Source of the DNA: Candidatus Proelusimicrobium bovinum
GTDB lineage: Bacteria; Elusimicrobiota; Elusimicrobia; Elusimicrobiales; Elusimicrobiaceae
NCBI GenBank assembly: GCA_902791965.1
Contig: CADAXZ010000005.1
Coordinates: 1-32,656, forward strand
Direction of reading: 5' to 3'
DNA length: 32,656 nt
Positions 7,488-30,420 of the stretch are shown here, piece after piece (within the stretch, counting starts at the first letter, position 1; the number at the start of each line of letters is the position of its first letter). The notes under the pieces are model-generated. The model had not been told where the DNA came from. It did no database searches and worked only from the letters and a program-made list of their open reading frames with translations. The translations under genes were made by a program, and so were the position numbers.

Positions 7488-10400
7488 CTAAAACTGTATT
7501 GTCAGCATAGTACCTATATTATAGGCGGTATAAGAATCTTCCTTAATATAAAGATGTTTAAAATTTTGGAAAGCGCCGGAAAGCGTAAGACGCATATTTT
7601 TGGAAATTTCATAATCCAAACTTGTGGAAAAATCTACCAAATCTCGGTTTTCTTCTATCGTATAAGAACGGCGGCGGGAATAACTTGCCGTAGTGTTCCA
7701 AATTACGCGGTTAGTCATCAAATAATTAGCACCGAAAAGCGGCAGGCGGAAACTGAAAGGTAAATTAAAGTCCACTCTTACATTTAAACTCGGCACGATT
7801 TCTTTAACATCATTTACTAATATATTGCCGACTTCAGTACTGCGGTCGTAAATATAATTTATTTTAGGGGTAAAACGGAAAGCCTTATGCGTAAAAGATG
7901 TCTGCGCGGAAAAATCCCTGCGCTCATAAAAAGCCAACTGCCTGTCTACAAGCAAATCTGTTTTATTTTGCTGCTGTTCGTTATAAGTTAAAGTAGTATC
8001 AAAATAATTAAACAGCACAAAGCGGAAATCCCCGCCGTAAGCAGTATCTTCCTTATAATCCTTGCCTAATGTTTCATTAGTGGAAAGGCTGTATTTAAGT
8101 TTTAAATTTACGCCGGAAACATATTTAGTAGAACTGCTGAAGAACTTTTCAAGTTCATCAATATAAAACACTACATCGGGTAAAGTTGATGTTATTGTTT
8201 TATAGCGCGAGCCTAAATCTTCGTTAGTTTGATAACTGCGCGTAAAATTATTGATTACCGATATAGTTTTTAAAGGCGCGGCCGCACCGGTAAATTGGTA
8301 TTCTTTAAACGGATTCCAACGCATAGCGGCGCTGTAAGTATCACGCATTGTAAGGCTGCTCCTGTAAGCATAAGGGGAATTGATACCCATAGAACTGCGT
8401 AGCCAAAGTTTATCTAAAGTTTCAAAACCGTCCGGTACATATTCCCAAGCGTCGCCGTCTTGTATTCTGTAAGAGCCGGAAATACTGAAAGCAGAAAGAA
8501 TTTTTGCTTTGGGCAGCATATCCCTTCCGTTTAACGCAAGAGAGATATTCCCCTCCGAACTTCTGTTAAGGCTTTTTACATCACCTATATCAAATGTATA
8601 AGTAGTATCGCCTATTTTGCTGGATGCGGCGCTTAAATTATTGTTTTCCTTAATATTTACGCTATAACTTGCCGTAGGTGCAAGCCAAGGCTTTATCCTT
8701 AAGACGGTGCTTAAAGCCGCCGTTTCCGATGCGTATTTGCTGTATTTTTTGTTGCGGAATGCTTCCACGCCGACGGAAGCATCATAATAACGGCGTTTTT
8801 CATCTGCACTTGTAAGGCTGTAAGAAGGTACTATGGAAGTCCCCTGCCAAGGAGAAAGCGTCATCTTAAAATTATAATTTTGTATAGTGGTATCACTGTT
8901 GTAAGAAGATCCTTGCGCCGCTATTAACTGTTTATCGCTGTAATCTATCCTGTTTTTAACAAGGGAAGTACCGGCAGATAAACTGCGCAGGATATTATCT
9001 TTCTTTTTTGCGGTGTGGTTAAGCGTCAGTGCATAAGTGCGGTTTGCATCTTCCCTTTGCAAGAGTTGGTAATCGGCATTTTCAAAACTGTAAGACGCAC
9101 CGATATTGGGGATTTTCTGCCCCGTATATTCCGCCTTTATTGTTCCTTTATCTCTGTTTACTTCCCCTTTATCTAACAGGCTTACGGTATTACTGCTGTT
9201 ATATCCCAAAACATCAGGCGTTAAAGTATTGGAACGGTAATAATTGGCATTTATCGGTAAATCTTTAATGCGCTTAAATTTAAGGTAATAATCTTCCTGT
9301 CTGTTTTTTTGGTTTGTCGCTACGGCAACAGGTGTTTGGAAGTTCTCATCCATATAAGTTATTTTGCCGCCGGCATCAAACCAATTATCCACACGCACCT
9401 GTGCCTGCCCCATATAAGCATTGCCTATTGTTACCATAGAATCAGCAAGGAAAACATCATCAACCCAAACTTCCCCTTGCGGGCTGCTGCCGTCAGGTTT
9501 AATAAGCCCCGCCTGCACTATACCAACGCGCTTATAATTAAGCATACCTTCGCTTACGACAGTTGCGCCGTATTTTGAAATGTTTTCCCATCTGTCGGGG
9601 ATATTGTCGCCGTTTGTATCAATAAGTTTAAGGCTGTAAAGATGCCAAGCATCTTTAAAATCAAGCGGGATACGGATTTCGCTGTAATTATTTTCATCGG
9701 CTGCAATACGCAGGAAGAACTGTGTATCCGCATCAATATTGCCGTTATTGTAAAGCAAAAAGCGGAACTGCCTGTGTTTGGAAAAATCCATCGAACTGAA
9801 GTTCCTCTGCACAGATACCCTGCTTAAGGCCGGATTCTTTGCAAAGTCATACATAAGTGCCAAAGATTGTTCTTCAACATTATTAGTGCCGTCGTCTTTT
9901 TTCATATCATTAACAGAGCCATACAAAGTACGGAATACTTCGCCGCCGTCGCCGTTATCGGCAAAGATAGGCTTATAATTTACATTATCAACATTGTTTA
10001 TGCCATAACTTAAAAGTACTTCCTCGTTAGTATCCAAAGGCTGCCAAATACTACCAGAAACACCCAAAGCCGCTATTTTTATCTGCCCTTTAAGTTTGCC
10101 TGCAGGATTCTTTTTTAAAGTAATGCGCATTTGCTGAACAGAAGTCCAATCCGTACCCCAAGGGTTCGTGGAAGAAGCAAAATCCACCTCCTGATTAAAG
10201 GTTTTCCACCCTGTATAATTTATAAGTCCGCCGGGTAAACCGTGGATTTCTTCCCCCGCAAAACCGAAGTTCCCTCCCGAGGTTAAATCGGCAGAATCTA
10301 AAAGCCCGTTTCCGTTTAAATCCTGTGTATCAATTTCCCCGTTAGGCTGTGGAAAGGGATTATAAACATTGTTTACAAAAGGATTATAACGCTGGTAAGT

Positions 10401-12911
10401 ATTATCGGGGTTTATGTAAATCCAGCCAACATCTTCCGTACTTGTAAGCCTGCCGGTGCAGCGTAAATCTTCCGTTTTGGGAACGCTGTTCATACCCGCC
10501 ACATAATATTTACTGCAAGTAGGCAAGATTTCATCAAGCCTTAAACCTTGGGCTACTAAAGAGGGATAAGCAATATAATTATCGCTCATTTCATTCATAG
10601 TGCCGAAGGAAATATTTATATAAGGCCCGTTTTCTTCCCCCTGCATTGTAAGTTCAAAGAGTGTTTTTTCGGAAAAATCAACTCCGGCATTACTAACAGG
10701 GAAAACTATTGAAACTTCATCTCTGTCGGCAAAACCTTTATCCTGCGCTATACTGAAATCATAATCAATTATTAAAACATTTTGTTTATCATCGCCGTTG
10801 GCTATTGCCGCCGGATTGATTTGAAGCATAGGCACATCCTGCGAATCCCATTTAATTGCATCAAAAAAGTTAGTACCGGCGGTAGGGTTAGAGGCTATTT
10901 TCCAATCCTTATAAATGGTAGAGGCTTTAATATATTCCTTTGTTTCTTCCATACTGTCAATCATAGCGTAGCCAAAAAGGTTTTCGTCTTTTTTACTTTG
11001 GGCCGCTTCCGCCCCTAAGGTTAAATGTACGCCTTCTGCCACTTGAACATCATTTACTTTAAAATCGGCTTCCATAGCAGTAAGGCTGCTGGTAGTCGCA
11101 CCTACGCTCGGCACGCGTTTAGGCTCGCTGCCTGATTCATTAAGCAAAGTTGCACCCACGGAAATTTTATCGGTAAAATCATAATTAAAACGCCCGCCCA
11201 TAAGCGCGCTGTCATCACTTGTACCCGCAACATCATAAGTAATATCAACCACGCTGTTAGAGCCTATTAAATCGGAATTATAAAATGTTATAAAGCCGGA
11301 AGAATAATCCACATAGTAATCTTTATTGCGCTGCATTGTAGCACCGTTTACTTTAACCTTTTCCGACTGGACAACTATATCAGGCTCTAAAAAGTAAGTT
11401 TTGACGGTGGAAGTGTACTGCACAAAAAAGTACCTGTTAGTGGAAGAAACCGGCGTAGAATTATAAAGCCCTACATCAGCAAAACGCCCTGCTATCCTAA
11501 ATGTACCTTTATCGTAATCCACTAAAAATTGGCAGAACGGGCGGGTATCATTTACGGAGCAGACCTCAGAGCCGTCAGACTCCAAAAGTTTTAAAATAAA
11601 ATTACCGCTTCCGTCATCACGCGTAATTTGTGTCGCGCCGATACTATAATAGCGTTTTATTTCTAATTGGTAGCCGAGTTCCGCAGAGGATGATATAGGC
11701 CTGTCATTATTGGTCTTTATTATTATCGGGTAGCCGTCAGGCTGGGCAGAACTTGCCCAAACGCCTTGGCTGTTTTGATAATCAACCGCAACTACATCCG
11801 TCGCGCTTAAAGCAGTATTAAAGATAAGTATATTTTGGTTGTAATCTATCGTATAATCAACACCGCGCGTAAGCAACCTGAAAGCCGCCGTAGCGCCGTT
11901 ATCGGGGTAAACTGCCCCCGTTTTTATATCTACTGCTTTGGATGCTACCTGATAACCGCCGTTAGTATGGTCATCTATATAAACCTTTTCCGTTCCGCTG
12001 CGGATGGCATAAGTCCAAGTTGTATCAGCAGAAGCCCCCGTCTGATAACCGAAAGTTAAATCATAATATTTCCGGCGCATATATTGCAAATCGCGGATAT
12101 TTACCGTTTCAAACACACTATCGCCCTTAAATTGTTTGCTTTTGCTCTCCCCTTTGTTTTGGCTGCCTATAAGCCTTAAGTGGGCATCTTTATATTGCAG
12201 GTGCATTTTAGCACCGAATACCTGCTTACTGTAAGAGATAAATTCCGAGCCTGGCAAAGAAAGTTCTATATCCCCGAAGTCCGCACTTTGCACAATTTCC
12301 CCCGCTTTGCCGCGGTACGATACCCCTATATTTTGGGCATCTTCGCGTTGGTCGTCATAGTCAATATCAACAAAAATCCTGTCGCTTATTTTACCTTGGA
12401 TTTTAAGTTGCATTTCCTGCTCAAACTGCATACTGCTTGTGTTGCGGTCATCAACGGTACTTTTACTGGCTTTGTATTTTTTTACATCATACTTTATGCC
12501 GAAAGTTTTACGCCCCGTCATTGAAATTGTCGTCCCGTAAATAGGCAAAAGCAGCGACGGATTTAAAATTTCCATATATTGGGTTGCCTGCTCTTTTATT
12601 TCTATTCCGCCTTCCATACCTTGTATTACATTTTCCAGATATGCGCGGTCATATTTAAAATATTCTTCTTCACCTTCTGTATCTTCATCCGAAGGCGGCA
12701 ACAATAAAGGTTTATCTTCTTTTAAGAATCCGTAGCGGGCAGGCTCAAAAAGTTTAAAACGGGAAGTATCTTTAAGAACGGAGTTTTCAAAAGTTTGTTC
12801 TTCCTTATTTTCAGGCCGCGCGGCAAGTTCTCCCGCGGCAAATACCTCGGAAGTAAAACAGTTTAAGCATAAATACAAGCCCAAAATAAGCCTTAAAATT
12901 TTATTAAGCAC
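7488..12911 (-). CDS. SprA-like giant outer-membrane beta-barrel protein
   Basis: This resembles SprA, the very large outer-membrane translocon of the Bacteroidota type IX secretion system. The start is set at the GTG at 12911, giving 1807 residues: GAGG lies 5 bases upstream and a clear signal peptide follows (LNKILRLILGLYLCLNCF, cleavage after VFA). An in-frame ATG at 12962 lies inside a terminator-like hairpin and would spoil the signal peptide. SprA-like stretches occur at about residues 150-290 (KISDRIFVDIDYDD, FGDIELSLPGSEF, SKQVFGAKMHLQYKD). A calcium-loop-like DLNGNGLLDSAD lies near 860, DTNGDNIPDRWE near 1100, and WVDDVFLAD afterwards. Many alternating beta strands follow, and the chain ends in TIQF, a barrel-assembly signal. 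It is shorter than typical SprA (over 2300). Exact role unknown. Confidence 0.82.
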   Translation of the reverse strand: MLNKILRLILGLYLCLNCFTSEVFAAGELAARPENKEEQTFENSVLKDTSRFKLFEPARYGFLKEDKPLLLPPSDEDTEGEEEYFKYDRAYLENVIQGMEGGIEIKEQATQYMEILNPSLLLPIYGTTISMTGRKTFGIKYDVKKYKASKSTVDDRNTSSMQFEQEMQLKIQGKISDRIFVDIDYDDQREDAQNIGVSYRGKAGEIVQSADFGDIELSLPGSEFISYSKQVFGAKMHLQYKDAHLRLIGSQNKGESKSKQFKGDSVFETVNIRDLQYMRRKYYDLTFGYQTGASADTTWTYAIRSGTEKVYIDDHTNGGYQVASKAVDIKTGAVYPDNGATAAFRLLTRGVDYTIDYNQNILIFNTALSATDVVAVDYQNSQGVWASSAQPDGYPIIIKTNNDRPISSSAELGYQLEIKRYYSIGATQITRDDGSGNFILKLLESDGSEVCSVNDTRPFCQFLVDYDKGTFRIAGRFADVGLYNSTPVSSTNRYFFVQYTSTVKTYFLEPDIVVQSEKVKVNGATMQRNKDYYVDYSSGFITFYNSDLIGSNSVVDITYDVAGTSDDSALMGGRFNYDFTDKISVGATLLNESGSEPKRVPSVGATTSSLTAMEADFKVNDVQVAEGVHLTLGAEAAQSKKDENLFGYAMIDSMEETKEYIKASTIYKDWKIASNPTAGTNFFDAIKWDSQDVPMLQINPAAIANGDDKQNVLIIDYDFSIAQDKGFADRDEVSIVFPVSNAGVDFSEKTLFELTMQGEENGPYINISFGTMNEMSDNYIAYPSLVAQGLRLDEILPTCSKYYVAGMNSVPKTEDLRCTGRLTSTEDVGWIYINPDNTYQRYNPFVNNVYNPFPQPNGEIDTQDLNGNGLLDSADLTSGGNFGFAGEEIHGLPGGLINYTGWKTFNQEVDFASSTNPWGTDWTSVQQMRITLKKNPAGKLKGQIKIAALGVSGSIWQPLDTNEEVLLSYGINNVDNVNYKPIFADNGDGGEVFRTLYGSVNDMKKDDGTNNVEEQSLALMYDFAKNPALSRVSVQRNFSSMDFSKHRQFRFLLYNNGNIDADTQFFLRIAADENNYSEIRIPLDFKDAWHLYSLKLIDTNGDNIPDRWENISKYGATVVSEGMLNYKRVGIVQAGLIKPDGSSPQGEVWVDDVFLADSMVTIGNAYMGQAQVRVDNWFDAGGKITYMDENFQTPVAVATNQKNRQEDYYLKFKRIKDLPINANYYRSNTLTPDVLGYNSSNTVSLLDKGEVNRDKGTIKAEYTGQKIPNIGASYSFENADYQLLQREDANRTYALTLNHTAKKKDNILRSLSAGTSLVKNRIDYSDKQLIAAQGSSYNSDTTIQNYNFKMTLSPWQGTSIVPSYSLTSADEKRRYYDASVGVEAFRNKKYSKYASETAALSTVLRIKPWLAPTASYSVNIKENNNLSAASSKIGDTTYTFDIGDVKSLNRSSEGNISLALNGRDMLPKAKILSAFSISGSYRIQDGDAWEYVPDGFETLDKLWLRSSMGINSPYAYRSSLTMRDTYSAAMRWNPFKEYQFTGAAAPLKTISVINNFTRSYQTNEDLGSRYKTITSTLPDVVFYIDELEKFFSSSTKYVSGVNLKLKYSLSTNETLGKDYKEDTAYGGDFRFVLFNYFDTTLTYNEQQQNKTDLLVDRQLAFYERRDFSAQTSFTHKAFRFTPKINYIYDRSTEVGNILVNDVKEIVPSLNVRVDFNLPFSFRLPLFGANYLMTNRVIWNTTASYSRRRSYTIEENRDLVDFSTSLDYEISKNMRLTLSGAFQNFKHLYIKEDSYTAYNIGTMLTIQF

Positions 12912-12934
12912 ATAATCCTCTATTTTAATTCTAT

Positions 12935-12978
12935 AAAAAATAGCGTGTAAATGTATAAACATAATACATTTACACGCT
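12935..12978 (-). terminator. Terminator-like hairpin between lptG and the SprA-like gene
   Basis: A perfect 15-bp inverted repeat (12942-12956 and 12964-12978, 7-base loop) is followed on the minus strand by six T (complement of A 12935-12940). It has the form of a Rho-independent terminator for lptF-lptG, placed 24-31 bases before the GTG of the SprA-like gene. It may partly uncouple expression of the two. Confidence 0.82.
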
Positions 12979-25795: not shown

Positions 25796-26890
25796 TTAAA
25801 CAGTTTTTTGGTATATTCTGTAAGTTTTAGTTTTATAACAGCCGGCTTCTTCTATGACGGAAATTATCGCTTTATTATCTTCCAGCATCCAAGAAAGTTC
25901 CGCCTTATTCCAACCTTTTTTTATACCGTTATCAACTACATGTTTAATAAGTAAAAGTTCCAAACCGCGGCTGCGGTGATCTGGGTGGACACCAAGCATA
26001 ATCATACGGCAATCGCGGATTTTATGCCAAGTTAAAAGTGCTTTAGGCAGTTTTAAAGGATTAAGCCAGCCGCCCAGAACTTTAAAGACCCTGTTCATAT
26101 TAGGTATAGCAATCGCAAAACCGGCAGGTTCGCCTTTTATTTCTATCATACAGGTAAGTTCCGGCTTTACTATCATTTTTAATTGTTTTGCCGTTTGGGC
26201 AATTTCCGCTTCGGTTATCGGCACAAAGCCGTAATTTTGACTCCAGGAAGCATTATAAATTTCCCTAATTGTTTTTACTTCCCTGTCAAAATCTTTAAGA
26301 TTAACAGGCCGCATTTTAATATCCGGATTTTTTAAAATACGGTTTATTATCTTTTGCATACGCGGCGAAAATTCGTTTTTATCCGTTCTGTCAAAGGCAA
26401 GCAAATCTTTTGCCTTTTCAAATCCGCAGGCTTTTAACAGTTTGTCATAATACGGATAGTTATAAGGCATCATTATACAAGGCATAGAATCAAAACTGTC
26501 AATCAAAACGCCGCAGGTGTGATTGGTACTCGGGTTAACAGGCCCGCGCACAGCATCTTTGCCTTTTTGTTTAAGCCAATTAACGGCGGCATCCGTTAAG
26601 GCTTTGGCAGTTTGTTCGTCATCCTCGCAATCAAAAAAGCCGAAAAACCCTATATTATCCTGCCAATGTTTATTGTGGTTGCTGTTTGTTATAGCCGCAA
26701 TTCTGCCGACGGTTTTGCCGTCCTTTTTAGCCAAAAAAAGTTCCTTTTCCGCATTTTGCCAAAAAGGGTCATCAGTTAAAAGATGTTTGGTTTCGCTTTT
26801 AAGTTCTGCTACAAAAAATTGACTTCCCTTATATAAATCAAAAGGGAAATCAATAAATTCTTTAAGGTTTGCCTTTTCTATACTAAGCAT
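25796..26890 (-). CDS. GNAT-superfamily acyltransferase (YghO-like; possible ceramide synthase)
   Basis: A 364-residue protein of the long GNAT type. The N-terminal half has ELFLAKKDGKTVGRIAAI, IGFFGFF, GPVNPSTNHTCG and MPYNYPYYDKLL. The C-terminal half has a GNAT core with MIMLGVHPDHRSRGLELLL, the acyl-CoA-binding loop. Proteins of this kind often sit beside serine palmitoyltransferase genes. As I recall, the bacterial ceramide synthase of Caulobacter is a GNAT-type acyltransferase, so N-acylation of a sphingoid base is a reasonable inference. It starts on the TAATG shared with the upstream gene's stop, meaning translational coupling. It is the last gene of the unit. Another acyl acceptor is possible. 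Confidence 0.72.
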   Translation of the reverse strand: MLSIEKANLKEFIDFPFDLYKGSQFFVAELKSETKHLLTDDPFWQNAEKELFLAKKDGKTVGRIAAITNSNHNKHWQDNIGFFGFFDCEDDEQTAKALTDAAVNWLKQKGKDAVRGPVNPSTNHTCGVLIDSFDSMPCIMMPYNYPYYDKLLKACGFEKAKDLLAFDRTDKNEFSPRMQKIINRILKNPDIKMRPVNLKDFDREVKTIREIYNASWSQNYGFVPITEAEIAQTAKQLKMIVKPELTCMIEIKGEPAGFAIAIPNMNRVFKVLGGWLNPLKLPKALLTWHKIRDCRMIMLGVHPDHRSRGLELLLIKHVVDNGIKKGWNKAELSWMLEDNKAIISVIEEAGCYKTKTYRIYQKTV

Positions 26891-28080
26891 TATTTTATTA
26901 TACCTAAGGCTTTGCCGGCCGCGCCGAAAACATCTATAATTTTATCAATTTGTTCGTCGGTATGTGTCGCCATAAGGGTAACCCTCATCATACATTTATT
27001 TGGCGGTACGGCAGGCGGGATTACAGGTGTTGTAAAAATGCCGCCGTCAAAAGTGGCGCGCCACATTTTAAAACAATCCTCTATATGTCCTACAAAAACA
27101 GGAACAATAGGAGTTTGTGTTTTACCTATATCAAAACCTAACTTTTTAAAGCCGGTTTTAAGCCTTTCACTGTTGGCCCAAAGTTTATCCTTGCGGGACA
27201 TATCAGTCCAAATCAAATCAAGTGCTTTGCTGATAGACGCTATTGAAGCAGGCGGCAAAGCAGCAGAAAAGATTTGGCTTCTTGCGCTGTGGCGGATATA
27301 ATGGATAACATCGGCATCTCCGGCAACAAAACCGCCTACGGTTGCGAAAGTTTTTGAACAAGTACCTACGATTAAATCCACTTCGCCGTTTTCCAAACCG
27401 AAATGCTCGCAAGTACCGCGTCCGGTTTTACCTAAAACACCTGTCGCGTGAGCATCATCAACAATAATCCTTGCGCCGTATTTTTTGGCTAATTTTACTA
27501 TTTCCGGCAAATTGCAAATATCGCCTTCCATACTGAATACACCGTCAACGATTATAAGTTTGCCTTTACTGTCGTCAATTTTGGAAAGGACCTTTTCCAA
27601 ATCTGCCATATCATTATGTTTAAAGCGCACCATTTCCGCTTCTGAAAGTTTTACACCGTCTAAAATGCTGGCGTGGTCCAATTTATCAACTATGGCTACA
27701 TCGCCTTTTTTAAGCAAACAGGAAATTACACCCAAATTCATTTGATAGCCTGCGGAGAAAATAAGTGCCGCTTCTTTGCCTTTAAACTTGGCTATTTTAT
27801 CTTCCAAATCATTGGCGGCCTGCGTATTGCCGTTTAAAAACCTTGACCCAGCCGACCCTGTACCTTTAAGCATTGCCGCTTCTGCGGCGGCTTTTTTCAT
27901 TTCGGGGTCATTGGCAAGGCCCAAATAGTTATTTGAACCGGCCATAATAAGTTTTTTACCGTTTAATTCAATTTCCGGCGCCTGTGCGGAAGATATAGGC
28001 TGAAAATAGCCGTAAATTCCTTTATCCATAAGGATTTTGGCGTCTTTAAAATTTCTGCATTTTTCAAAAATATCTGCCAT
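26890..28080 (-). CDS. PLP-dependent alpha-oxoamine synthase, serine-palmitoyltransferase-like
   Basis: A 396-residue member of the family that includes serine palmitoyltransferase (SPT), KBL and BioF; these condense an amino acid with an acyl thioester, releasing CO2. Visible: GSNNYLGL (48-55), GTGSAGSRFLNGN (73-85), cofactor-stacking His136 in LDHASIL, VDDAHATG (Asp208, His211) and the PLP lysine Lys243 in TCSKTFATVGGF. The lysine loop and SARSQIFSAALPPA look more like bacterial SPT than KBL or BioF, and the C-terminal PPAVPPNKCMMR also fits SPT. AAGG lies upstream of the ATG. Position behind accBC and in front of a GNAT acyltransferase supports a lipid role. KBL (threonine catabolism) is the main alternative. 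Confidence 0.8.
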   Translation of the reverse strand: MADIFEKCRNFKDAKILMDKGIYGYFQPISSAQAPEIELNGKKLIMAGSNNYLGLANDPEMKKAAAEAAMLKGTGSAGSRFLNGNTQAANDLEDKIAKFKGKEAALIFSAGYQMNLGVISCLLKKGDVAIVDKLDHASILDGVKLSEAEMVRFKHNDMADLEKVLSKIDDSKGKLIIVDGVFSMEGDICNLPEIVKLAKKYGARIIVDDAHATGVLGKTGRGTCEHFGLENGEVDLIVGTCSKTFATVGGFVAGDADVIHYIRHSARSQIFSAALPPASIASISKALDLIWTDMSRKDKLWANSERLKTGFKKLGFDIGKTQTPIVPVFVGHIEDCFKMWRATFDGGIFTTPVIPPAVPPNKCMMRVTLMATHTDEQIDKIIDVFGAAGKALGIIK

Positions 28081-28122: not shown

Positions 28123-28590
28123 CTATTTTATCGATGCTTTCTTAATTGTATTTGTAGTTGAACGGCCTTCTAAAATAGGATAAAGTGCGACTTTTTTTGC
28201 AAATTCTCTGCCTACTACATTTTCCACTTTATAATCAGCGCCTTTTATAAGAACATCGGGCCTGACGAGTTTTATAAGTTCCAAAGGAGTATCTTCCTCA
28301 AACAAAGCGACGGCATCTACCGCCTGCAAAGAAGCACACACAAGCGCTCTGTCCTCTTGGCAGTTTATCGGACGCAAAGGCCCTTTAAGCCTTTTGACCG
28401 AAGCATCGCTGTTTATACCAAGCACCAAAATATCTGCCTGATTTTTTGAAAACTCCAAAATACTGACATGTCCCGCATGTAAAATATCAAAGCATCCGTT
28501 GGTAAAAGCGATTGTTTTACCTTGCTGTCTTTGTTCTTTTACAAAGGTATCTAACTGTTGCCAAGTAAGTATTTTATTTTTGGCTTTCAT
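28123..28590 (-). CDS. D-glycero-beta-D-manno-heptose 1-phosphate adenylyltransferase (single domain)
   Basis: A nucleotidyltransferase of 155 residues equal to the C-terminal domain of HldE (RfaE2/HldC type). It activates heptose 1-phosphate to ADP-heptose for the LPS inner core. The signature FTNGCFDILHAGH lies at about 29-41; INSDASVKRLKGPLRP, LIKGADY and the C-terminal GRSTTNTIKK follow. The kinase domain is not attached, so a separate HldA/HldE kinase would be needed elsewhere. I place the start at the ATG at 28590, which overlaps accC by 17 bases and fits the family's N-terminus. An in-frame TTG at 28614 is the alternative; neither has a strong Shine-Dalgarno. Confidence 0.88.
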   Translation of the reverse strand: MKAKNKILTWQQLDTFVKEQRQQGKTIAFTNGCFDILHAGHVSILEFSKNQADILVLGINSDASVKRLKGPLRPINCQEDRALVCASLQAVDAVALFEEDTPLELIKLVRPDVLIKGADYKVENVVGREFAKKVALYPILEGRSTTNTIKKASIK

Positions 28591-29950
28591 TTTTCTTAAT
28601 AATTTTTTCCACAAGACCTGTATTCATTCTGCCTGCGGAAAAATCCTCGTCATTAATCATTATTTTATGGAAATCTATTGTAGTTTTAACACCTTTTATA
28701 CGGAATTCATCCAAAGCCCTTTTACTGCGTTTTAAAGCAGTTTGCCTGTCTGGCGCAAAAACTATAAGTTTTGCGATAAGGCTGTCATAAAAGGAAGGTA
28801 TTGTATAGCCAGTATGAACATGGCTGTCAAGGCGAATACCAAGCCCGCCCGAAGGTATCCATTCTTCAATAGTGCCCGGGCAAGGCATAAAATTATGCCT
28901 GTAATCTTCCGCATTTATGCGGTGTTCTATTGCGTGGCAATGCACCTCAAGCGCGCGCTGCGGTGTAATATTTAAGGCTTTACCTTGTGCAATATCTATC
29001 TGTAATTTAACTAAATCAAAACCGCTTACAAGTTCCGTAACAGGATGTTCCACCTGAAGGCGGGTATTAACTTCCATAAAATAGAAATTATGGTTTTCGT
29101 CCATTAAAAACTCAGCCGTGCCTACCCCGCTGTATTTGGCTTCCTTGGCAAGGCGCATAGCCGCGGCGCAAAGTTCTTTTCTTACCTCAGGCGTTACAAA
29201 CGGGGAAGGGGATTCTTCCAGCAGTTTTTGGTTTTTGCGCTGCATTGAGCAATCCCTTTCAGCAAAGGCAACTGCATTGCCGTAATTATCTGCCGCTATT
29301 TGAACTTCTATATGGCGCGGATTTAAAACTAACCTTTCAAAATAAACCCTTCCGTCGCCGAAAGCGGCTTTTGCTTCCCCCTGTGCGGTATCAAGCGCTT
29401 TTTGGAAATCTTCTTTACCGAAAGCAGGGCGCATACCTCTGCCGCCGCCGCCCATAGTGGCTTTAATCATTATCGGGAATCCTACCTTTTGCGCTGTTTT
29501 TAAGAAATCTTTTTCAACAATTCCGTCAGAGCCTGGTATAACAGGCACTTTAGCGGCAAGCGCCAAAGCCCTTGCATGGGCCTTTTCCCCAAGTTTTAAA
29601 ATGGCCTCAGGTTTAGGGCCGATAAACACCATACCGTTATCAATAACGGCTTGCGCAAATTTTGCATTTTCCGATAAAAATCCATAACCAGGGTGGACAG
29701 CCTGTGCGCCGGTCATTTTACAAGCGGCGATTAAGGCATCAATATTCAAATAACTCTCTGCCGAAGGCCCGGGGCCTATGCAAACGGCTTCGTCTGCCTG
29801 GCTTACATGGGCGGAATATTTATCCGCTTCGGAATAGACCGCTACGGATTTTATGCCCATTTCTTTAAGGGTGCGGATTATACGAAGGGCAATTTCCCCC
29901 CTGTTGGCTATGAGAACCTTATCAAAAGGTTTAAAAGTTTCTTTAATCAT
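28574..29950 (-). CDS. accC: Biotin carboxylase subunit of acetyl-CoA carboxylase
   Basis: AccC carboxylates the biotin on AccB using ATP and bicarbonate, the first step of malonyl-CoA formation. The 458-residue chain has the start ANRGEIALRI, HPGYGFLSEN, the ATP-binding glycine loop GGGGRGM, AERDCSMQRKNQKLLEE, the metal- and biotin-site FYFMEVNTRLQVEHPVTE and HRINAED. The usual GDK of the ATP-grasp region is GEK (conservative). All catalytic stretches look intact. It begins one base after the accB stop and overlaps the heptose adenylyltransferase gene at its end. accA and accD, the carboxyltransferase subunits, are not in the window. Confidence 0.95.
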   Translation of the reverse strand: MIKETFKPFDKVLIANRGEIALRIIRTLKEMGIKSVAVYSEADKYSAHVSQADEAVCIGPGPSAESYLNIDALIAACKMTGAQAVHPGYGFLSENAKFAQAVIDNGMVFIGPKPEAILKLGEKAHARALALAAKVPVIPGSDGIVEKDFLKTAQKVGFPIMIKATMGGGGRGMRPAFGKEDFQKALDTAQGEAKAAFGDGRVYFERLVLNPRHIEVQIAADNYGNAVAFAERDCSMQRKNQKLLEESPSPFVTPEVRKELCAAAMRLAKEAKYSGVGTAEFLMDENHNFYFMEVNTRLQVEHPVTELVSGFDLVKLQIDIAQGKALNITPQRALEVHCHAIEHRINAEDYRHNFMPCPGTIEEWIPSGGLGIRLDSHVHTGYTIPSFYDSLIAKLIVFAPDRQTALKRSKRALDEFRIKGVKTTIDFHKIMINDEDFSAGRMNTGLVEKIIKKNESQK

Positions 29951-29951
29951 A

Positions 29952-30326
29952 TCAAGGCTCTATAAAAAAAAGAGGCTGCCCGTATTCTACGGCAGCACCA
30001 TCTTTGGCTAAATTGATTTTTAAAGTTCCTGCTACGGGGCAATTAACTTCTTTTAAAGTTTTATTCATTTCCACATAGCCTAAAATATCGCCTTGTTTAA
30101 CTGGCATATTTTCTTTAATTACAACGGCTTTGCCTTTTAAGCCGGAATTATAAATCCCGACTGCAGGGGCTTTAACTGCGGTAAGTTTACAAGAAAAATC
30201 AGAGGCTTTAGGGTTTTTGGCGGCGGTGGAAATTTCCACACAAACGCCGTCTTTTTTAAACAGCACTTCCTGTAAATCGGTCTTTTTAGACCAAGCAATA
30301 AAATCCGAAAGGGTTTTTGTATCCAT
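29952..30326 (-). CDS. accB: Biotin carboxyl carrier protein-like AccB with atypical attachment motif
   Basis: A 124-residue AccB. The N-terminal helix region (LSDFIAWSKKTDLQEVLFKK) and the C-terminal biotinyl domain (about 50-124, with VKQGDIL and VEYGQPLFFIEP) are clear, and accC follows. The attachment site is odd. In place of EAMKM it reads E86-M-N-K89-T, with no gap in the alignment to ordinary BCCP, so Lys89 occupies the biotin position but both flanking methionines are lost. It slightly resembles the lipoyl motif ETDKA. It could still be biotinylated by an adapted ligase. AGGAGA precedes the ATG. The gene heads the acc-heptose-SPT-GNAT unit. Confidence 0.88.
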   Translation of the reverse strand: MDTKTLSDFIAWSKKTDLQEVLFKKDGVCVEISTAAKNPKASDFSCKLTAVKAPAVGIYNSGLKGKAVVIKENMPVKQGDILGYVEMNKTLKEVNCPVAGTLKINLAKDGAAVEYGQPLFFIEP

Positions 30327-30395: not shown

Positions 30396-30420
30396 TATGC
30401 CGCTTAAAATAAGCGGCATA
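30396..30420 (-). terminator. Hairpin after tgt
   Basis: A perfect 11-bp inverted repeat (TATGCCGCTTA 30396-30406 and TAAGCGGCATA 30410-30420) with a 3-base loop, followed on the minus strand by a T-rich stretch (TTTTC). It lies 16 bases after the tgt stop and probably ends queA-tgt before the accB unit; the T run is short. Confidence 0.65.

Follow-up and report, generated by a model that had tools for sequence, protein, structure and literature searches.

The plastid heteromeric acetyl-CoA carboxylase of plants contains BADC proteins, which are paralogues of BCCP that lack the biotinylation motif and accompany a separate biotin carboxylase and a canonical BCCP. Excerpts of one account (PMC11926652) describe BADC as 25-30% identical to BCCP, without AMKL and not biotinylated, report that these proteins inhibit in vivo and act as assembly glue in vitro, record that the inhibitor and glue roles are disputed, and hold that only the plant enzyme has BADC subunits. 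The same excerpts mention a non-catalytic subunit that serves as "glue" in certain bacterial acyl-CoA carboxylases (PMC11926652), and part of a second paper has BADC competing with BCCP for BC (PMC7712654). By analogy, BADC is best read as the closest precedent for a degenerate AccB/BCCP paralogue that we located in Candidatus Proelusimicrobium bovinum, within a 32,656-nucleotide stretch of DNA (the window). This AccB-like protein shares with BADC the missing motif, the canonical BCCP present beside it, and the separate biotin carboxylase; unlike BADC it is bacterial, is encoded directly before accC, is 124 residues long, and has almost no linker. The likeness is one of description rather than of compared sequences, and a PDB profile search returned no BADC by name.

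The gene occupies positions 29952-30326 of the minus strand, stop codon included, and was assigned from its open reading frame, ATG start, and translation. It immediately precedes accC (28574-29950, minus strand), the only biotin carboxylase gene of the genome, whose product exceeds the NCBIfam cut-offs of both PRK08591 (649.7 bits) and TIGR00514 (637.7 bits). The AccB-like protein matches Pfam Biotin_lipoyl (PF00364) over residues 50-122 with 36.2 bits (cut-off 22.1) and scores 40.5 bits against the NCBIfam BCCP model TIGR00531, below the cut-off of 115.2. By itself the latter score is a weak argument against a functional AccB/BCCP, because the canonical AccB of the same genome (98.7 bits) also falls below that cut-off. 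An hhalign comparison with canonical AccB covered 120 columns at a probability of 99.1, and across the aligned columns the protein shares 22% identity with canonical AccB from its own genus. It thus resembles bacterial AccB/BCCP in fold, N-terminal module, C terminus, and place before accC, but differs in lacking the AMK motif, in scoring under the TIGR00531 cut-off, and in occurring beside a canonical AccB. Lipoyl domains, whose turns read E-x-x-K, and GcvH belong to the same barrel superfamily and share the ExxK turn, whereas the gene context and best family match of the AccB-like protein are of the carboxylase type. AccE-type helper subunits of bacterial acyl-CoA carboxylases are likewise non-catalytic but are not known to be biotinyl-domain proteins.

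The former biotin-acceptor turn is encoded by codons Met87-Asn88-Lys89-Thr90 (30057-30068, minus strand) and was placed from the sequence, from its alignment to canonical AccB, and from its position between model strands 81-87 and 90-95. It reads E86-M87-N88-K89-T90 where E-A-M-K-M/V is expected, so reading of the open reading frame and alignment to canonical AccB bear out the original prediction of M-N-K-T in place of A-M-K-M. That prediction had also described a gapless alignment to BCCP, which holds for the strand-turn-strand segment with Lys89 in place but not for the whole domain, as the thumb region is one residue shorter than in ordinary AccB and the linker is nearly absent. The replacement of two flanking methionines, by Asn88 and Thr90, was read correctly; the full difference nevertheless amounts to three motif residues (A87M, M88N, and M90T), and the canonical AccB of the window genome itself carries valine, not methionine, after the acceptor lysine. 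Finally, the protein had been taken for the AccB of this organism, whereas it is a paralogue of one, a canonical AccB being present in the same genome.

An AlphaFold2 model built from 59 rows (pLDDT 86.8, pTM 0.59) consists of a helix at residues 3-13, strands at 18-25 and 28-34, and a barrel in which residues 88-89 form the turn. The helix-strand-strand portion corresponds to an N-terminal module (residues 1-34; 30225-30326, minus strand) that aligns with the N-terminal module of canonical AccB and has Trp12, Thr16, Asp17, Leu18, and Glu20 conserved. The biotinyl-domain-like barrel spans residues 49-123 (29958-30182, minus strand), as delimited by PF00364 and by structure comparison, and includes the C-terminal EYGQPLFFIE. 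Its best PDB match in Foldseek was the Escherichia coli biotinyl domain 1bdo (TM by target 0.87, 1.3 Å), and 4hr7, the BCCP of the E. coli BC complex, was near the top of the matches. As judged from the model, the AccB-type fold and the N-terminal module appear to be retained.

Every one of the 18 genus genomes has the AccB-like gene, as do 89 of 90 genomes of the family; in the exception (G052) accC is missing as well, as would happen if the operon fell in an assembly gap. At the turn, nine of the 18 genus members have EMNKT or QMNKT, five have ESHKK, QSHKK, or QCHKK, two have EAGKT, and G016 and G006 have EAGTS and EMNNT, respectively; AMK occurs in none, and the acceptor residue is lysine in 16, with asparagine in G006 and threonine in G016. 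A wider scan of species genomes, performed with peptides from outside the acceptor turn, yielded 78 loci, 74 of which (L075-L148) belong to the AccB-like family; the titles of 68 name Elusimicrobia or a taxon within the phylum, and those of the other six give only "bacterium" (L077, L088, L102, L126, L142, and L148). AMK was absent from all 74, lysine was at the site in 42, and the remaining 32 had Ser, Ala, Thr, Asn, Gly, Arg, or Gln. All four loci of the scan from outside Elusimicrobiota (L149-L152; Omnitrophota, Bacteroidetes, and two Margulisiibacteriota) possessed AMK. Many rows without the lysine carry lysine, glutamine, or alanine one position on (ETLSKK, ETLSQK, and ETVSAK), so there is no consistently placed neighboring lysine. 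A functional AccB would be expected to have an AMK-type motif and an acceptor lysine conserved among its orthologues; here the motif is EMNKT, and the lysine is present at only 42 of the 74 loci. A strain-specific change or sequencing error, for which an ordinary A-M-K-M at this locus in relatives had been proposed as the sign, was rejected, since the gene is present throughout the genus and neither the 18 genomes nor the 74 wider loci have AMK. EAMK is, however, found in the accC-linked copy of other Elusimicrobiota classes, which indicates evolved loss rather than a change confined to one strain.

Across Elusimicrobiota, the AccB-like family profile matched 304 of 340 genomes (E 1e-13) and the canonical AccB profile 307 of 340 (E 1e-12). 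From 64 of the 340 genomes, selected to span families, 113 matches were obtained and 80 were fetched; when sorted by profile, motif, and gene context, 60 were of the accC-linked type (L213-L263 and L265-L273) and 20 were canonical (L264 and L274-L292). The canonical set, found by profile, had EAMKV[F/M/L]N[E/D] in 20 of 20 cases. The motif was lost in 22 of the 60 accC-linked proteins (L213-L231, L270, L272, and L273), four of which keep a lysine at the site, and the other 38 have [A/T/C]M followed by Lys (32), Arg (5), or Gln (1). The arginine versions, in which AM or TM is kept, come from other families and classes of the phylum (L239, L255, L260, L262, and L269), as does the glutamine version (L238). 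An ancestral accC-linked protein probably carried the biotin motif and members of the class Elusimicrobia lost it. The AMK, TMK, or CMK and the Arg or Gln versions in other classes point to repeated loss. A quick tree of 110 rows (138 columns, with 46 of 107 inner branches open) placed 82 accC-linked rows, representing 129 different ones, on one side of a branch (SH-aLRT 89) and 26 canonical rows on one side of another (80), and required at least 14 changes between lysine and other residues. The 26 canonical rows had been selected by the EAMKV motif, so that their zero motif entropy is circular and was not used. Three accC-linked rows lacking the motif (L270, L272, and L273, family f11) sit on a very long branch.

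The AccB-like gene is under strong purifying selection, lysine-less lineages included. Pairwise dN/dS (Nei-Gojobori) between the window gene and four near relatives (L075-L078) was 0.06-0.08, with synonymous sites near saturation; five lysine-less pairs gave 0.03-0.08, and two more such pairs had zero amino acid changes. The variable columns include 87, 88, 90, and 91, and the conserved ones include Trp12, Thr16-Leu18, Glu20, Glu86, and EY.QPLFFI. Mean entropy was 1.52 for the N-terminal module vs 1.45 for the barrel, so the module is not the more conserved part.

In the window the accC start codon lies 1 nt past the AccB-like stop, and the first accC ATG lies 1-11 nt past it at the 16 junctions of relatives that were examined. 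Downstream of accC on the same minus strand are genes named by eye as RfaE2/cytidylyltransferase-like (28123-28614), glycine C-acetyltransferase (KBL)-like (26890-28080), and acetyltransferase-like (25796-26890), the last being the end of a conserved gene row; the same order, from the AccB-like gene to the acetyltransferase-like gene, recurs among relatives (names by eye). A terminator-like hairpin (30396-30420, minus strand) between the AccB-like gene and tgt upstream of it, the latter named by eye, comes from a consensus scan only, with 2 found in the region vs 0.7 expected, and is weak evidence. Elsewhere in the window, a 1824-residue open reading frame (7488-12962, minus strand) adjoins two LptF/LptG genes and has no Pfam match at E 1e-5. 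Same-strand accC follows in 70 of the 74 wider loci, with its frame starting within 250 nt in 45 and 250-2500 nt off in 25. In the other four it was absent from the stretch examined: L122 ends after 324 nt, and L132 (6.0 kb), L143 (4.3 kb), and L145 (2.8 kb) have enough flank to tell. In a sister family another gene intervenes between the AccB-like gene and accC. Intervening frames of ∼555-600 residues that encode a hydrophobic stretch and CxxC motifs resembling zinc ribbons were seen at L127:6368-8032, L135:6387-8183, and L113:6368-8140; the encoded protein might be a further partner of the complex. AccC is single in 86 of 90 family genomes, two copies being present in G063, two pieces in G011, and none in G032 and G052. 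The two AccB-like/accC pairs of G063 are on contigs C82 and C32, and this genome may be a mixed assembly because it is 83% complete with 3% contamination.

The window genome (1.51 Mb, 92% complete) contains four places matching PF00364: an OadA-like protein (EAMKME), the canonical AccB (EAMKVFNE), GcvH (ESVKS), and the window protein. Canonical AccB was detected in 81 of 90 family genomes, including 51 of 51 good ones, and all 30 canonical loci read with a loose pattern have EAMKVFNE. Its gene has a conserved place of its own: at 46 of 49 loci it adjoins an FtsK-like gene, a small open reading frame, or both; upstream of it in the window genome are frames that by eye resemble a phage portal protein and a prohead protease (L294:50-991 and 972-1556). 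Neither the AccA nor the AccD profile reached its cut-off in any of the 18 genus genomes, and in 17 of the 18 both profiles match within one open reading frame of 415-584 residues. The sole AccA/AccD-like match of the window genome is an MmdA/PccB-type carboxyltransferase (L293:2063-3712, contig C3) that scores 704.5 bits with TIGR01117 (below the cut-off of 998.8) and 578 bits with PF01039. Adjoining it are phosphopantetheinyl-transferase-like and PfaA/PKS-like frames. This carboxyltransferase make-up is unusual for a bacterial acetyl-CoA carboxylase; given that no AccA or AccD match reaches its cut-off and a single MmdA/PccB-type frame is present, the AccC and AccB enzyme here probably uses a one-chain carboxyltransferase of that type.

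We consider it fairly likely that the AccB-like protein has ceased to be a biotin carrier and belongs to the AccC-AccB complex as a subunit without biotin, in a structural or regulatory role, because it keeps the carrier fold, is encoded with AccC, stays under selection whether or not the lysine is present, and has a genuine carrier alongside it. Produced together with AccC from the gene directly before accC, it would take carrier positions on AccC or pair with canonical AccB, and such occupancy or pairing would determine how the acyl-CoA carboxylase assembles, in what stoichiometry, or how active it is; the biotin chemistry would be done by the unlinked canonical AccB. That the protein is unmodified in the window species is inferred, on comparative grounds only, as are its contact with AccC or AccB and its influence on activity. 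According to the accessible part of a study of the Chloroflexus carrier (PMC11077971), K-to-A substitution in the EAMKM motif abolishes biotinylation, which supports non-modification at the loci without the lysine. Against a non-biotinylated subunit stand the retention of Lys89 in the window species and most of the genus, an N-terminal module that is on average no better conserved than the barrel, the 25 loci at which accC lies 250-2500 nt away, and L132, L143, and L145, where it is not near. The same 25 loci also count against a second function that the position immediately before accC would allow, in which only AccB's repression of its own operon is left and the protein is a dedicated autoregulator that sets accC expression outside the enzyme. 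Control by the N terminus only would not need the barrel and the C-terminal YGQPLFFIE, and these are as conserved as the N-terminal module, so we regard an autoregulator as unlikely.

The biotin/lipoate-ligase family has three places in the window genome. A 187-residue protein scores as a biotin ligase (L006:1456-2019), a 235-residue protein resembles one (L005:1474-2178), and the third gene shares a contig with that of GcvH; one small genome has two biotin-ligase-family genes, and one product is only 187 residues long. The searches proposed with the original prediction, for further biotin acceptors and for BirA-type genes, thus found two of each. One of the biotin ligases could act on Lys89 and make the window protein a second working carrier for AccC. 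Glu86 is conserved, Lys89 still occupies the right turn in the window species, as a lysine does in 16 of the 18 genomes of the genus, and the accC-linked copy retains EAMK in outer classes of the phylum. Mutagenesis of biotin domains suggests that biotinylation does not strictly depend on the methionines beside the lysine, so with its lysine in place the protein might still be modified. We nevertheless judge a working carrier improbable, as relatives of the same family without the lysine keep the gene under the same selection, the residues flanking the lysine are among the variable ones, and the other acceptors of the genome are ordinary. Of the three options offered at the outset, loss of modification is the best supported. 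An adapted ligase was rejected as the main idea in view of the two ordinary acceptors and the lysine-less relatives, and since canonical AccB can keep the biotin chemistry, there is no need to invoke ligase adaptation or lipoate. Lipoate or octanoate on Lys89, with recruitment of the protein to a lipoyl-dependent process, is very improbable: the lysine does remain in the window species, E-M-N-K-T is as similar to lipoyl turns as to biotin turns, and a ligase-family gene accompanies GcvH on one contig, but many relatives have no lysine at the site, the linkage is to accC rather than to gcv or dehydrogenase genes, and among family models BCCP fits best rather than any lipoyl protein. That the gene is an old accB in decay is hardly credible despite the decay of the motif in many lineages, and a pseudogene was rejected, given dN/dS values of 0.03-0.08, retention in 89 of 90 family genomes, and no internal stop among the matches listed.

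Returning to a non-biotinylated subunit of the AccC-AccB complex, we found no paper that describes a biotin-less BCCP subunit from bacteria in the open-licence literature, as judged by titles and the beginnings of abstracts. In its accessible part, an early-evolution study of biotin carboxylases mentions Elusimicrobia and presents trees without the BCCP domain (PMC3199775). On balance we lean toward a history in which an Elusimicrobiota clade evolved its own BADC-like subunit, the accC-linked AccB having become a non-biotinylated assembly or control subunit, the unlinked AccB doing the chemistry, and the lysine having been lost many times. If so, bacteria would have their own counterpart of a subunit described as exclusive to plants, and carrier duplication followed by loss of biotin would be a path by which fatty-acid synthesis can gain a helper subunit more than once. 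A bacterial analogue beside its own biotin carboxylase would offer a small, easily expressed system in which to address the role of a biotin-less carrier, and the series within the phylum (EAMK, EAMR, EAMQ, ExxK, and no lysine) would amount to a natural mutagenesis of the acceptor site. For annotation, the locus warns that an accB adjoining accC is not always the carrier.
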